Below, piece after piece: positions 33,261 to 42,269 of a stretch of 42,269 nt of DNA. The first letter of the stretch is position 1. Each line of letters begins with the position of its first letter. The DNA comes from a virus, in the IMG/VR virus record IMGVR_UViG_3300024054_000545, positions 1 through 42,269 of that record; one strand, given 5' to 3'. The notes beneath the pieces are model-generated. The model did no database searches. It saw only the letters and a program-made list of their open reading frames with translations, and was not told the origin of the DNA. The position numbers were made by a program, and so were the translations under genes.

Positions 33261-33632
33261 CTACTTGCCGCCAAAAGTCAGTTTGAAAAGCACGGCTAGG
33301 GCGGACTGCTCCTTGGTGTATTCCGCGTCCAGATCATGTTCGTGGAACATCATCACCACATAGGGCTGATAGCCGTCACAAACAAAGTCATGGCTGACGG
33401 CAGCATTCATATCCTCGTCCCACTCGCCCTTTATCTCGCCCCAAGCGATGTGCTGATCCACATCCGCGTTCTGGCCCTCGAACCACTCGTAGAACGTCAA
33501 GCCAGCCCATGTTCTGATTACGCTGTCTGCGGACAGCCAAATAGGAATAGCATGTTCGTTGAACTTGTCCTCCAGGTCGTCCCTGACCTGGAAGTATTCT
33601 GCGAGCGGAATGGGAATTCGGACTTCAATCAC
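33261..33632 (-). CDS. small protein with C-terminal 'AVLFKLTFGG' motif (123 aa)
   Basis: Function unknown. MIEVRIPIPLAEYFQVRDDLEDKF begins with GTG at 33632, overlapping the stop of the NUMOD3 gene by eight bases. The C-terminus 'QSALAVLFKLTFGGK' is the clearest example of the shared ending found in other small proteins here. An alternating strand/helix pattern suggests a compact alpha/beta fold. Confidence 0.75.
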   Translation of the reverse strand: MIEVRIPIPLAEYFQVRDDLEDKFNEHAIPIWLSADSVIRTWAGLTFYEWFEGQNADVDQHIAWGEIKGEWDEDMNAAVSHDFVCDGYQPYVVMMFHEHDLDAEYTKEQSALAVLFKLTFGGK

Positions 33633-34158
33633 TGTTGGTCGCCTTTGCGATTTTGTTGGCGGCGCGAGTAGCGCGCAGCTTGGCCTTGGCCACTTCCGAC
33701 ATGGGTGGCCTCTTCTTGCCGATCTGGCCTTTGGTGCGCTTCCTCACATGCTCTTCGCTTTGCTTGACGCCACGCTTGGCATCACCGATCCTGGCACGGG
33801 CATCGGCCTCATGCTTGTCACCGGTCTGGAAGCGGAACATCTTCAAGCTGTCCTCGCTCTTCATGATCCTGGCATCGGCAACGGTCATCGTTCCGCCGAT
33901 CACTCGCGCTTCGCGACTAACCCATCCACACACAGGGGCGTACAGCTTGTTACCCATGTAATAGTCGATGGACTTCTGGCCCTGTGCGATCTTCTTGGCC
34001 ATCGTGTTGATCCGGGTTGTCGACCACAGGCTGAGGTATTCCGCAAACGTCATCGTCACGCGGATTTGGTTCTTGGTGCGCTGGTAGTTGATGGTGGAGT
34101 TGTACTCCTTCCACAGCAATTCCAGGACGGGTTCGGGTGTGTTATCAATCGTTGCCAT
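33625..34158 (-). CDS. NUMOD3-containing putative homing endonuclease (177 aa)
   Basis: The C-terminal half has NUMOD3-type DNA-binding repeats: 'GDAKRGVKQSEEHVRKRTKG' and 'GKKRPPMSEVAKAKLRATR'. The N-terminal 100 residues ('FAEYLSLWSTTR', 'YAPVCGWVSREARVIGG') resemble the nuclease part of HNH-like phage proteins, but I cannot identify the catalytic residues. ATG 34158 with GGAG is preferred to a TTG at 34170. The long leader between promoter and start forms a terminator and alternative stems. Confidence 0.75.
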   Translation of the reverse strand: MATIDNTPEPVLELLWKEYNSTINYQRTKNQIRVTMTFAEYLSLWSTTRINTMAKKIAQGQKSIDYYMGNKLYAPVCGWVSREARVIGGTMTVADARIMKSEDSLKMFRFQTGDKHEADARARIGDAKRGVKQSEEHVRKRTKGQIGKKRPPMSEVAKAKLRATRAANKIAKATNSD

Positions 34159-34198
34159 GTCGTGCTCCAAATAAAAAAGAACCCCCGGAGAGCACGAC
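34159..34198 (-). promoter_or_regulatory. ribosome-site-sequestering stem of the NUMOD3 gene
   Basis: GTCGTGCTC (minus, 34198-34190) pairs over nine bases with GAGCACGAC (34167-34159), which contains part of the GGAG site next to the ATG. A second GAGCACGAC (34269-34261) can compete for the same partner. Confidence 0.65.
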
Positions 34199-34212
34199 CA
34201 ATCCGAGGGTTC
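34173..34212 (-). terminator. intrinsic terminator/attenuator in the leader of the NUMOD3 gene
   Basis: GAACCCTCGG pairs with CCGGGGGTTC (ten positions, one G-U), followed by TTTTTT. It lies after the promoter and before the ATG, so it would stop RNA before the gene. The GGGAACCCT segment overlapping its 5' arm can instead pair with upstream AGAGTTCCC (34238-34230). Confidence 0.7.
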
Positions 34213-34282
34213 CCGAAGACCCCGTTGAAGGGAACTCTGAAACTGTAAGGGCGCTATAACGTCGTGCTCGTTGCGTCCGATC

Positions 34283-34288
34283 TATTTA
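34283..34288 (-). promoter_or_regulatory. TAAATA late-type promoter element
   Basis: The minus strand reads GGTAAATAGATC, 124 bases before the NUMOD3 ATG, the longest leader of the set. Confidence 0.65.
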
Positions 34289-34301
34289 CCCGATAAGCCC
34301 C

Positions 34302-34319
34302 AAAAGGGCTTCAAACGGG
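34302..34319 (-). repeat. 18-bp promoter-upstream repeat, copy 2
   Basis: Identical to 1920-1937. Both copies end 13 bases before TAAATA. Confidence 0.7.
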
Positions 34320-34371
34320 CATCTTAGACACACTATGCGTTCTGGGTGTGTTGCGTGTCATTATTCATGTG

Positions 34372-34394
34372 CCCTACCTTGGTAAGAGCCATAT
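34372..34394 (+). repeat. 23-bp direct repeat, copy 1
   Basis: The unit contains CCCTACCTTGGTAAGAGCC followed by ATAT and is repeated exactly at 34430-34452. Confidence 0.85.
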
Positions 34395-34429
34395 GTGTTC
34401 ATAGCGCAGCGGCGGCAGCTTACTTCCTC

Positions 34430-34452
34430 CCCTACCTTGGTAAGAGCCATAT
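34430..34452 (+). repeat. 23-bp direct repeat, copy 2
   Basis: Exact second copy, 58 bases after the first. It is followed at once by the hairpin ATCTAC-GATA-GTAGAT. Confidence 0.85.
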
Positions 34453-34576
34453 CTACGATAGTAGATATGTTTCCCCTTCCCAACGAAGGAGACGAACTAA
34501 ACTACCACCACTACTCAGACGCCTTGCGTTTGCCGTGCCTTCGCACTCGCTCTGCTCGTACTCAGGCCGTCAAACA

Positions 34577-34685
34577 CTGGCGTCAGGCAACTTCGTTGAA
34601 CTTCGTTCGTCCTGGCCTTTGGCCCAGGGGCATTTGTCTGCGACAGCCATTAGTCCTGCGGACAGCCAGAAGTCTGCGACGCCAG
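34577..34685 (+). ncRNA. candidate structured RNA domain
   Basis: CTGGCGTC (34577-34584) and GACGCCAG (34678-34685) close a 109-base domain. Inside it are CAAC-TTC-GTTG, GAAC-TTC-GTTC, a CCTGGCC/GGCCCAGG stem with a bulge, TGTC-TGC-GACA, GTCC-TGC-GGAC and GTC-TGC-GAC. The strand is assumed, since all stems also form in the complement. No promoter was identified. Confidence 0.35.
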
Positions 34686-34806
34686 TCGCTTCGCTCCGTT
34701 GGCGACGCCGCTGGAGGGAAATGGCGCCCCTACAAAGCCCTGAAAGCCTCCAGGGTGTCTGCGGTGCTAAACTGGCGGGATGGCCCTGTGCGGGCGTCTC
34801 TGGGGA

Positions 34807-35209: not shown

Positions 35210-35662
35210 TTATGCGGCCCGTGCCAGCTGCTGTTCACCACCCATGAACTTGAGCTTGAACAACATGGCCTTGTCGCGCTCCTTAAAGCTCACGCTCAGG
35301 CCTGCGCGATAGTGCGTGTTGATGATGCTGGGCAGGGGCTGGCCCTTCTGCAGATAGATCGTCCTGATCTGATCACCCTTGTGCTTGGTTGCATAGCGAC
35401 AGGTTGTCACCCGGCCACCATGCTCCTCGATCCAAGCAAGTGCCTCGCTGTTGCGCACCTGCTTTGCTGCCACTTCGCGCACCCTATAGCGGACCTGACC
35501 CGCCCAGGCTTCCGCGCCCTCGATAGTGCAGAGATAGTCGGCCCTGAAGCTCAGCCCTTCAAGCACGGCATCGCGATCCACAAGCTGCTCAGGGATCGTG
35601 ATGCGAAAGCGCGTGTCGCACTTGGGGTCTTGTTCAATAGTCAGGCTTGCGTAGCGGCTCAT
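35210..35662 (-). CDS. small protein with C-terminal 'AMLFKLKFMGG' motif (150 aa)
   Basis: Function unknown. An alternating strand/helix protein ('LTIEQDPKCDTRFRITIPEQL'). 'SVSFKERDKAMLFKLKFMGGEQ' near the C-terminus is the shared motif of the family described in the findings. ATG 35662 has AAGGAG six bases upstream. Confidence 0.75.
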   Translation of the reverse strand: MSRYASLTIEQDPKCDTRFRITIPEQLVDRDAVLEGLSFRADYLCTIEGAEAWAGQVRYRVREVAAKQVRNSEALAWIEEHGGRVTTCRYATKHKGDQIRTIYLQKGQPLPSIINTHYRAGLSVSFKERDKAMLFKLKFMGGEQQLARAA

Positions 35663-35900: not shown

Positions 35901-36179
35901 GTGACCCTCGCAGACCATCACTACAAGTGGGCAACAGCCCTACTCGCAACCCTCAATGCCGCATGGATGGCTGGCGAGGTTGACGCGTCCGATCTGCCCA
36001 TGAACCGCATCAACGGCATCGTGACCCAGGGCGTCGATGCTTGGCTGTCTCAGCTCTATCCTTCTCGTTGTGCGCCTGATCGCGTCAGCTACAGCACGCC
36101 ATCCGTGAATGCGCTGCTAGACGAGGCCGAAGCGGCTGGTCGTGCTTATTCTGCTGCGCTTGCGGGAGGTGCGCAGTGA
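35901..36179 (+). CDS. hypothetical protein (92 aa), first gene of the plus-strand operon
   Basis: Not recognised. GTG start at 35901 with AGGAG about 9 bases upstream; a second AAGAGGAG lies further up. Mostly helical. It heads a run of seven genes with overlapping starts and stops. A near copy of the 13-bp palindrome (TCACTACAAGTGG, 35918-35930) lies in its first codons. Confidence 0.7.
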   Translation: MTLADHHYKWATALLATLNAAWMAGEVDASDLPMNRINGIVTQGVDAWLSQLYPSRCAPDRVSYSTPSVNALLDEAEAAGRAYSAALAGGAQ

Positions 36180-36469
36180 GCCACACCATCACCGTAGAAG
36201 TGCGCGAAATGTCCGGTCCCAAGGACAATGAGGCGCTCATGCTCTCGTTCCTCGCTGGCCAGTGGGGCACAGTGCCCCAATTCGGTCAGGTCTATGCCGA
36301 CTGGTTGAGGCGGCACAACATGGCCGTCGTGCCCACGGTTACTCCTCTTGAGCATCACGCGGATGCCCTGCGTCCCAGCAACATGATGTTCCGCTTTGCC
36401 TGTGGCTTTGTCCTCGACAGCGATGAGGACGCGGAGTGGTTCAGGCTCACATTCGTAGGTGCCGCATGA
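36176..36469 (+). CDS. small protein with C-terminal 'AEWFRLTFVG' motif (97 aa)
   Basis: Function unknown. GTG start overlapping the previous stop. The end 'VLDSDEDAEWFRLTFVGAA' is a divergent form of the small-protein ending shared with the 123-, 150-, 111- and 84-aa proteins. Confidence 0.7.
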   Translation: MSHTITVEVREMSGPKDNEALMLSFLAGQWGTVPQFGQVYADWLRRHNMAVVPTVTPLEHHADALRPSNMMFRFACGFVLDSDEDAEWFRLTFVGAA

Positions 36470-37503: not shown

Positions 37504-37775
37504 CGGTACTGCGCACCGACGTGATGCTCCTTGAGGCCTACATGCGTGGTGCGAGCCGTCGCATGCCTACCAAGATCATGGACCCATACGCCAACCTGAA
37601 CACGCCCTATGACAACCCTGTGCTGATAACCTGGGGCAGCAACAGCATGGTATGTGACAGGGACGACCTAGAGCCTCTGCTCGACGTACTCGACGCAGAC
37701 AATGGGATTAGCCCCAACGGCTTCCTAGAGGACTATTGGAAGCCCTTCCTGCGACAGCACGCGGACAAAGCCTGA
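37500..37775 (+). CDS. hypothetical protein (91 aa)
   Basis: Not recognised. GTG start at 37500 overlapping the previous stop (GTGA). Contains 'NLNTPYDNPVLITWGSNSMVCDRDDL' in a mixed fold. Confidence 0.65.
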   Translation: MTVLRTDVMLLEAYMRGASRRMPTKIMDPYANLNTPYDNPVLITWGSNSMVCDRDDLEPLLDVLDADNGISPNGFLEDYWKPFLRQHADKA

Positions 37776-38110
37776 TGCCAGAGCAGCTTTACAAGGCCCA
37801 TATGATCCTGCCCAGTTATCCCCATTGGTGCGATCATGTTGACATCCTCGCAGCGTGGGACGGCAAATCGGACTTTATCTCCTACAAGGGCAATGACCAC
37901 CTTCGTGTTATCGTGCTCCACCAGATGGCCGCGATGGAAGCGATGTTCCGTGAGAAGGCACTAATCGACGCAAAGCGGTCGCTTGGGGATGAGGCTGACC
38001 ATCTCTTGAATGTGTACGTTGAAGCAGATCGAACCAAGCACGCCGTTCCAGCTACATTCGTTTTCAACAACAAGAACACGGCGTTGATGTTCAAAATGCG
38101 CTGGGGTTAG
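37775..38110 (+). CDS. small protein with C-terminal 'ALMFKMRWG' motif (111 aa)
   Basis: Function unknown. ATG 37775 overlaps the previous stop by one base (TGATG). The protein ends 'FVFNNKNTALMFKMRWG', the same ending as the other family members. It ends tail to tail with the minus-strand gene 38107-38295 with a four-base overlap. Confidence 0.75.
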   Translation: MPEQLYKAHMILPSYPHWCDHVDILAAWDGKSDFISYKGNDHLRVIVLHQMAAMEAMFREKALIDAKRSLGDEADHLLNVYVEADRTKHAVPATFVFNNKNTALMFKMRWG

Positions 38111-39379: not shown

Positions 39380-39907
39380 ATGCAAGCCCCGCTACTCAGC
39401 AACGCGCAATGGGCAAAGATCGAGCAGCACATTGAGGGAATGCAGAACCCCGCGATGTACAGGCTGATTGTGCGTTTGATCCGCGAAACGGGTCTGCGCC
39501 CCATTGAACTAGCGCGCATGGAGCGCAGCTGGATACGAGGGCTTGAACTGCGCATCCCGCAGGGCAAGAGCAAGCGCGGTCGGGCTGGCACTGTGCCCCT
39601 CGCGGAAGAAACGGTGTTTGAGTTGTTTGCGTTCATGCAGGGACGTGACGGCCCTGTGTTCCTCACGCGCACGCTCAAGCCCTTTACGCCCCTGGGCATG
39701 ACGCAAGCCATTATCCGGCTAATGGATCAGGCAGGCGTGCAGGGTAGCTGCTACAGCGCGCGTCGCGGGCTTGCTAATCGGCTCGTGGACGAGGGCGCAA
39801 ACATCGCAGTTGTGCAACACGTCCTGCGCCACGCTCATATGTCAACCACTGCTTCATACTGCGCTGTTAGCACAAATATGGTGCGCAAGGCGCTTTATGG
39901 TGCCTGA
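39380..39907 (+). CDS. tyrosine recombinase, catalytic domain only (175 aa)
   Basis: DNA strand-exchange enzyme of the integrase/Xer type. Likely active-site residues are R40 ('TGLRPIEL'), K63 or K65, R128 ('YSARRGLANRL', with Tyr125 where His is usual), H151 ('LRHAHMSTTASY') and nucleophile Y160. The N-terminal core-binding domain of normal integrases (about 100-150 residues) is missing; the frame begins with a ribosome site AAGGAG, so it is not simply cut. It may resolve DNA multimers or work with a partner; integration is not shown. Confidence 0.85.
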   Translation: MQAPLLSNAQWAKIEQHIEGMQNPAMYRLIVRLIRETGLRPIELARMERSWIRGLELRIPQGKSKRGRAGTVPLAEETVFELFAFMQGRDGPVFLTRTLKPFTPLGMTQAIIRLMDQAGVQGSCYSARRGLANRLVDEGANIAVVQHVLRHAHMSTTASYCAVSTNMVRKALYGA

Positions 39908-41422: not shown

Positions 41423-41608
41423 ATGCTTAACCAGATCGACCTCGCAGCTTTCGCAGACTACGCGCTCAGCACTTTCGACTACTCGGCCGACTTCGAGGAC
41501 GATGCGTGGGTTGTCGAGTTTCAGGGCGTGAAGGTGTATGTCGAACGCAAGCGCAACTTCTTCAACATCCATCTTGGTTCGGAGTGCCACAAGCTGCCGA
41601 GGTGCTGA
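41423..41608 (+). CDS. hypothetical protein (61 aa)
   Basis: Not recognised. MLNQIDLAAFADYAL with a hairpin-loop ribosome site directly before the ATG. 'WVVEFQGVKVYVERKRNFFNIHLG' suggests strands. It overlaps the end of the minus-strand endonuclease gene tail to tail by 47 bases. Confidence 0.6.
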   Translation: MLNQIDLAAFADYALSTFDYSADFEDDAWVVEFQGVKVYVERKRNFFNIHLGSECHKLPRC

Positions 41609-42269
41609 GCGCAGTCTCCCGCGCTTTGCGTTCCGCATGTCGCTTCCGCATAGCTGCGGAGCGACGTGCCCGTGTATCGGGGTTTGCGCTCGCCTCTTTC
41701 AACACGGCCCGTCGCTCGTCGGATAGCTTTGTGCCTTTGAGAGGGTTGACCCAGCCTTCCGCTTTTTTCCTCGCGCGCGTTGCTGCTGCCTTCTCGCGCA
41801 TTTCGGGCGTGTTGGGGCGGCTGTTGGCCTTGCTGTGGTTCTCGCGCGCCGACGGAGTGTTATGCGCGACTTTGAGTTTAGCCCGTCCTTCGTCCGTCAT
41901 CTTGCGCCCCTTGTTGCCGGGACGGGGCGTTCCCCATAACGGACGCTTGAATTTGTGACCTCCACGTCCACGATTGAGGAAGCGGTGGCTCTTTACGGCA
42001 TCAAAGTAGAACTGGAGAAGTTCCTCGCGCAGGAGGGCTTCGTCCTTGCTTGACGCGATGTCGCATCGAAAGACGTCAGGTTCTCCCCAAAGATAGCGTG
42101 CAGCTGTCACATATTGGCTGCTCGTAAAGTACGTTGACCAAAGGTCCGAAGGCGCGCATCCATTCGCGTATTTCACGCCAATGTAAAATCTGTCGTGCTT
42201 TGACCAGCCGATTAGATAGGTGAAGGGTTGTGAGCTTTTCATTCTGTAGTTTAGCAACGCTGCTGTCAT
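41562..42269 (-). CDS. GIY-YIG homing endonuclease with NUMOD3 repeats (235 aa, start at the window edge)
   Basis: The N-terminus has the GIY-YIG signature as Y18-L-I and Y29-I-G31 ('TYLIGWSKHDRFYIGVKYA'), then E83 ('LREELLQFYF') and N99. The second half has NUMOD3-type DNA-binding repeats ('GRKMTDEGRAKLKVAH', 'PNTPEMREKAAATRARKKAEG', 'GTKLSDERRAVLKEAS'). The ATG at 42269 is the last codon of the window, so the true start could lie outside, or at the ATG at 42242 (MKSSQPF). It is the fourth endonuclease-type gene in the window. Confidence 0.85.
   Translation of the reverse strand: MTAALLNYRMKSSQPFTYLIGWSKHDRFYIGVKYANGCAPSDLWSTYFTSSQYVTAARYLWGEPDVFRCDIASSKDEALLREELLQFYFDAVKSHRFLNRGRGGHKFKRPLWGTPRPGNKGRKMTDEGRAKLKVAHNTPSARENHSKANSRPNTPEMREKAAATRARKKAEGWVNPLKGTKLSDERRAVLKEASANPDTRARRSAAMRKRHAERKARETALSTSAACGTPNQDGC

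Follow-up and report, generated by a model that had tools for sequence, protein, structure and literature searches.

Superinfection immunity that works through RNA alone has been established experimentally in a few enterobacterial phages, and the C4 RNA found there is released by RNase P, which cuts the longer precursor transcript at a GGW. Among plasmids, CopA-CopT and the IncI/IncB pair of Inc RNA and repZ place replication genes under kissing-loop or pseudoknot control; these systems join loop-loop recognition to a fast-evolving, incompatibility-like specificity, and in them an upstream loop can compete near the translation start. In phage P4, the CI RNA pairs with two sequences, seqA and seqC, situated upstream and downstream of it, and causes termination of transcription (PMC4825925). 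In P1 and P7, the b' loop of C4 covers a ribosome site, and differences of 4 nt separate the specificities (PMC5320573).

The window analysed here, a stretch of 42,269 nucleotides of viral DNA (IMG/VR record IMGVR_UViG_3300024054_000545), carries on its minus strand a leader that recalls these systems. In the direction of transcription, the features of the leader, of the DNA before it and of the two genes behind it are:

34431 to 34448, minus strand: first copy of the operator-like repeat GGCTCTTACCAAGGTAGG, immediately following the palindrome ATATCTACTATCGTAGATAT
34373 to 34390, minus strand: second copy of the operator-like repeat GGCTCTTACCAAGGTAGG, with 11 nt between it and the -35 element
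34332 to 34361, minus strand: distal promoter P1, with -35 ATGACA at 34361-34356, an 18-nt spacer and -10 CATAGT at 34337-34332
34283 to 34288, minus strand: TAAATA, beside a GATCGGA block; either an element of the RNA or the -10 of a weaker proximal promoter
34249 to 34278, minus strand: hairpin I, with seqA in its loop
34261 to 34269, minus strand: seqA, the upstream target, GAGCACGAC, inside hairpin I
34239 to 34244, minus strand: AGTTTC, a possible weak anti-Shine-Dalgarno sequence that pairs with GGAGC in the RNAalifold consensus
34220 to 34233, minus strand: hairpin II, TCCC-ttcaac-GGGG
34179 to 34212, minus strand: hairpin III, the putative antisense hairpin and terminator stem, with an 11-bp stem (arms GAACCCTCGGA/TCCGGGGGTTC) and a 12-nt loop, TTGGTCGTGCTC
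34190 to 34198, minus strand: seqB, the putative antisense sequence, GTCGTGCTC, in the loop of hairpin III
34173 to 34178, minus strand: run of six T (U in the RNA) 3' of hairpin III
34159 to 34167, minus strand: seqC, the second target, GAGCACGAC, identical to seqA and overlapping the ribosome site GGAG
34158 to 34156, minus strand: start codon ATG of the first gene
33625 to 34158, minus strand: the operon's first gene, of 177 aa, with an N-terminal domain of no recognised fold and a NUMOD3-like tail
33261 to 33632, minus strand: second gene, 123 aa, ending in an LLFKLTFGG-like sequence (LAVLFKLTFGGK)

All the motifs named in a preliminary description of this DNA lie where it had placed them (minus strand, 34361-34156), including both copies of GAGCACGAC, their complement GTCGTGCTC, the start codon and the complete terminator hairpin with its six T. 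The 9-mer and its complement occur nowhere else on either strand of the 42 kb window than at these three leader sites.

As in P4, a target, the loop of an antisense hairpin and a target at the ribosome site follow one another on one transcript in the leader of a prophage operon, and short complementary stretches appear to set the specificity. In a positive control, the Rfam models C4, isrK and c4-a1b1 all matched P4 DNA (74.9, 60.8 and 44.1 bits), in which TTCACAGG lies upstream, CCTGTGAA inside the C4 RNA and TTCACAGGA beside the ribosome site. However, the spacings between the elements are 71 and 31 nt here as against about 187 and 80 in P4; the P4 RNA has multiple stems and a second 10-nt stretch, GGCAGCCTCC/GGAGGCTGCC, where the present leader has one loop and one 9-nt stretch; and the antisense hairpin, which lacks an Rfam match, doubles here as a terminator-like stem. 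Similarly, C4 is processed by RNase P and built of three stem-loops that include the separate antisense loops a' and b', whereas the leader has a single antisense loop, that of hairpin III, with one stretch of 7-10 nt; its downstream genes are also not icd/ant-like by the searches done. What it shares with C4 (RF01695) is an antisense loop that pairs with a target in its own operon, over the first gene's ribosome site (PMC5320573). At gathering score, the models C4, c4-a1b1 and isrK matched neither the window nor any of 13 related loci, and relaxing the limit to E = 10 over 34100-34700 of the window, or to E = 3 in 8 of the related loci, did not bring out a match either. Thus, the action may be seen as C4/CI-like, since an antisense loop is complementary to targets up- and downstream, yet the leader is no member of that family, since the Rfam models fail and the loop is single. 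Two weak Rfam matches in 34100-34700, ctRNA_pGA1 and SAM-SAH, had E values of 2.3 and 5.5 and were discarded as chance-level. As for CopA-CopT and Inc RNA, their antisense RNA comes from the opposite strand, whereas all the elements here are on one strand, and no replication gene stands behind the phage leader.

In minimum free energy the leader is unremarkable (z = -0.42) and Rfam returns nothing at gathering score, so the case rests on comparison, i.e., on covariation. Relatives were gathered by DNA patterns, by protein searches and with a covariance model built from four leaders; a covariance search in other phages had been proposed in the preliminary description, and in the relatives so found stem III and the three-way pairing are kept. 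Eleven distinct three-element leaders resulted (the window, L002, L008, L043, L061, L062, L069, L070, L083, L110 and L111), with the ten relatives being mostly sphingomonad prophages and viral contigs in which the order seqA-seqB-seqC is the same; some members are located in Sphingomonas chromosomes. L002, reached via the protein encoded behind the window leader, is a prophage contig also present in the genome of Sphingomonas gellani S6-262; there, the leader is kept and two other genes, the first of them small, separate it from the homologue of the 177-aa protein. Between the window and L002 the three copies are altered jointly, from GAGCACGAC/GTCGTGCTC/GAGCACGAC to GAGCATCAC/GTGATGCTC/GAGCATCAC. 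Five seqA/seqC types are seen: GAGCACGAC, GAGCATCAC, GAACACGAC (L061), GGTACGAC (L070) and GAGAACCAC (L111). The departures are small, with one mismatch in seqA of L069 and a terminal G-U pair in each of L070 seqA and L043 seqC, and each of the 11 leaders in the window's subfamily has its seqC overlapping the first gene's ribosome site.

Counted by script on elements picked by eye, a choice that biases the counts towards pairing, standard pairs fill 85 of 88 cells of seqA/seqB (11 distinct types, double changes in 7 of 8 columns) and 100 of 100 cells of stem III (10 distinct stems, double changes in 10 of 10 columns), levels matched by none of 5000 swaps between phages in either case. For seqB/seqC the figures are 39 of 40 cells and double changes in 5 of 8 columns, with 43 of 5000 swaps reaching this level in a test limited by there being five distinct types only. 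The stored alignment did not serve for these counts, as MAFFT had inserted gaps into the extracted elements. In an independent swap matrix of the longest matches, also made by script, seqB pairs over 7-10 bp with its own seqA and 8-9 bp with its own seqC, against only 3-7 bp when the segment comes from another specificity type. Two detectors that are blind to sequence and score architecture show the arrangement to be beyond chance: that for triples of hairpin loop, ribosome site and upstream copy (585 kb, both strands) and that for loop/upstream pairing (721 kb) found only members of the leader family, in DNA fetched partly for its resemblance to the window, so that the lack of other matches speaks for specificity and not for prevalence. 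At the level of sequence comparison, then, the three-way complementarity, its co-variation and the re-pairing of stem III are established; the mutually exclusive pairings of the loop complement, with either the upstream or the ribosome-site copy, which the preliminary description had proposed, are supported by the compensatory changes in the relatives.

These patterns point to a compact antisense-type RNA switch, similar to C4 of P1/P7 and CI of P4, whose recognition is phage-specific and which would repress a prophage operon, a reading that we hold with a confidence a little above even. The leader transcript would display seqA in its 5' hairpin and then fold hairpin III with seqB in the loop, and the stem of hairpin III with the U-run would halt a part of the transcripts to yield a short leader RNA. 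On the mRNA that reads through, seqB would bind seqC over the ribosome site and thereby block translation of the operon, with the identical upstream seqA competing for the seqB loop as a first target or decoy. When a phage of the same type superinfects, the short leader RNA that the resident prophage makes would act on it in trans. We infer that the outcome is repression and not activation, that there is a short RNA, and that it acts in trans and has a part in immunity; in a short RNA that includes seqA as well as seqB, the two could pair internally, which would leave the RNA inactive in trans as long as it is not processed. The existence of many types with strict co-variation favours recognition between molecules, as pairing confined to cis need not differ between phages.

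This last point bears on the main rival, a bistable leader acting only in cis, in which the hairpin I bearing seqA kisses the seqB loop and frees the ribosome site, failing which seqB-seqC pairing shuts translation; no RNA would act in trans, and the choice would be set by the speed of transcription, by RNA processing or by a protein. In local folds of each of the 11 leaders seqA falls within the loop of a hairpin, as such a switch would have it, and the identity of seqA and seqC would make for an even competition. The stems of hairpin I vary in sequence, with own and swapped stems comparing as 4.7 to 4.1, a slight excess. As for a GGW at which RNase P could cut, GGA stands at the foot of hairpin I in most members (not in L043, L070, L110 and L111). 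Further, six more distant leaders, the B-subfamily (L088, L093, L098, L099, L100 and L076), carry a counterpart of hairpin III in the corresponding position, its loop pairing over 7-9 bases with an upstream segment (e.g., GGGTTCGC, GGGTCCA, GACTGTCA, GACTGAGA and GGGCTGCAA), so that seqA-seqB persists there; the seqC copy at the ribosome site is absent in all six. In L093 at least, the ribosome site can, going by its sequence, pair instead with the foot of the hairpin. Hence, the system has some function besides masking the ribosome site. However, a leader acting only in cis needs no phage-specific sequence, and the types look like the product of selection against cross-reaction, as between P1 and P7 (PMC5320573); we consider this alternative rather unlikely, if to be taken seriously. 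Two lesser elements lie between the pairing parts. Close members have a small hairpin with changed pairs in the place of hairpin II, which is missing or different in L061, and AGTTT is kept in most members, the AGTTTC/GGAGC pairs being without covariation.

The preliminary description had likened the leader to a transcription attenuator controlled by a ligand or a protein, in the manner of a riboswitch, with an antiterminator opposing the terminator. In the window, and in most relatives too, a terminator hairpin with a U-run does stand before the gene, and 8 of the 9 bases of the antiterminator AGAGTTCCC/GGGAACCCT could pair in the window, with one mismatch. However, this antiterminator is not conserved, the mean longest complement in the relatives being 4.4 for own and 4.7 for swapped segments, and it is best given up. 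The U-run is missing after hairpin III in L061 and L111, so that intrinsic termination appears common but not essential, and what is conserved as a unit is the pairing system, not an attenuator. No Rfam riboswitch or leader was found at gathering score in the window or in the 13 related loci, and the pairing parts are the most variable of the leader, with no conserved aptamer core; such hypervariability argues against a riboswitch that binds a ligand, in which the core should be conserved, and for sequence-specific recognition between RNAs. The attenuator is accordingly an improbable reading. Thus, of the preliminary description as a whole the motifs, an arrangement beyond chance and the notion of a regulatory leader with exclusive pairings stand, but not the antiterminator, nor, as set out below, its promoter and its endonuclease; systems of the C4/CI kind were not named in it.

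If the antisense-type switch is taken further, the leaders could form a new compact family of phage antisense leaders conferring RNA-based superinfection immunity on sphingomonad prophages, with many mutually exclusive types, in which the sequence and fold are unrelated to C4/CI and one 9-nt loop sets the type against two identical targets. This is a tentative proposal, to which we give somewhat less than even credence. If true, it would bring compact immunity with at least 10 natural pairing specificities to alphaproteobacterial prophages, would make the rules of RNA immunity and of specificity switching testable by exchange of 9 bases, and would suggest that current covariance models miss such systems. 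Among the papers searched there was no report of such leaders in Sphingomonas phages. Annotated phages gave no match to the leader DNA or the 177-aa protein, nor did phages and plasmids to the B-subfamily proteins. Pattern R1 under strict filters yielded nothing new in 399 genomes of the family, a search of 289 class-level genomes with the 177-aa protein recovered only G001, which was already known, and the matches in a 16-mer scan of genome contigs were mostly due to chance, with only L028 and L043 being real. Three loci (L095-L097) have protein relatives and no recognisable loop-target leader; a short leader there ends at TATAAATAG, possibly as a leaderless variant.

The first gene had been described as a NUMOD3 endonuclease. 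Its tail does resemble NUMOD3 repeats, with phrog_314 as the sole match (E = 0.0028, residues 100-167), but no nuclease domain (GIY-YIG, HNH or other) is found by Pfam, and its AlphaFold model (pLDDT 83) has no PDB match at E <= 0.001, so that neither sequence nor fold bears out a nuclease. Homologues of the 177-aa protein occur in or adjoining most leaders; nevertheless, in 6 of the 11 the first gene is unrelated to that of the window, with the junction exactly at the start codon. The leader thus behaves as a portable control unit that governs an operon position and not a particular enzyme. The second gene has a homologue in the same operon of L008, and no antirepressor or kil gene was recognised in the operon. 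LLFKLTFGG-like ends recur on many small ORFs of these phages that have no other resemblance to one another, namely at 33261-33632, 35210-35662, 36176-36469 and 37736-38110 of the window and on the first genes of L043, L069 and L111.

Upstream, P1 is the sole sigma-70 match within 33.5-35.3 kb. A match with spacing 17-19 recurs at the corresponding position in each of the 11 leaders belonging to the window's subfamily, as well as in L088; across the eleven it has a T(A/T)GAC-like -35, a CATAGT-like -10 and an 18-base spacer (17 in L070). Transcription is expected to start at about 34326-34323. P1 is hence better supported, at 34361-34332, than the promoter placed at 34283 in the preliminary description. 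TAAATA may still mark a possible second, weaker proximal promoter: TAAATAGATCGG is kept or nearly so across the window's subfamily, and the B-subfamily has TATAAA, with a -35 at N18 spacing in L098, L099 and L100. Unless there is such a second promoter, the conserved TAAATAGATCGGA would be transcribed from P1.

The two copies of GGCTCTTACCAAGGTAGG are exact (0 of 100 shuffles had 2 matches) and may serve as operators. The same pair is present in L002, L043, L061 and L062, and the palindrome ATATCTACTATCGTAGATAT is retained in these and in L093. Operator-like repeats so close upstream, and a leader joined to different genes exactly at the start codon like a recombination module, would also suit a reading in which the leader repeats themselves function as DNA (operators, recombination sites or insertion scars of homing elements) with the pairing incidental. 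Yet the inverted copy sits in a hairpin loop, the compensatory changes in stem III and in the three copies require RNA pairing, and the detectors of RNA architecture gave zero false positives, which leaves this reading very improbable. Beside the RNA pairing of the antisense-type switch, DNA-level specificity is also suggested by the different repeat pairs that L070/L093, L088 and L098-L100 have at the operator-like places.

The surroundings offer some further observations. A short tyrosine integrase (PF00589, E 1.9e-15; 175 aa, the catalytic part) is encoded at 39380-39907 of the window, pointing to a temperate phage or a remnant of one. At 41562-42269 lies a candidate GIY-YIG-like homing endonuclease (phrog_314, E 3.9e-11; SegE GIY-YIG below the cut-off). 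Repeats of the TGGCTGTCCGCAGGA and GTCGCAGAC type recur in intergenic DNA, at 34640-34700 of the window and likewise in L002, L093 and L098-L100. Finally, the genes upstream of the leader in L083 (2585-3832) and L070 (2148-3122, minus strand) resemble, by eye, tRNA-guanine transglycosylase/DpdA-type proteins.
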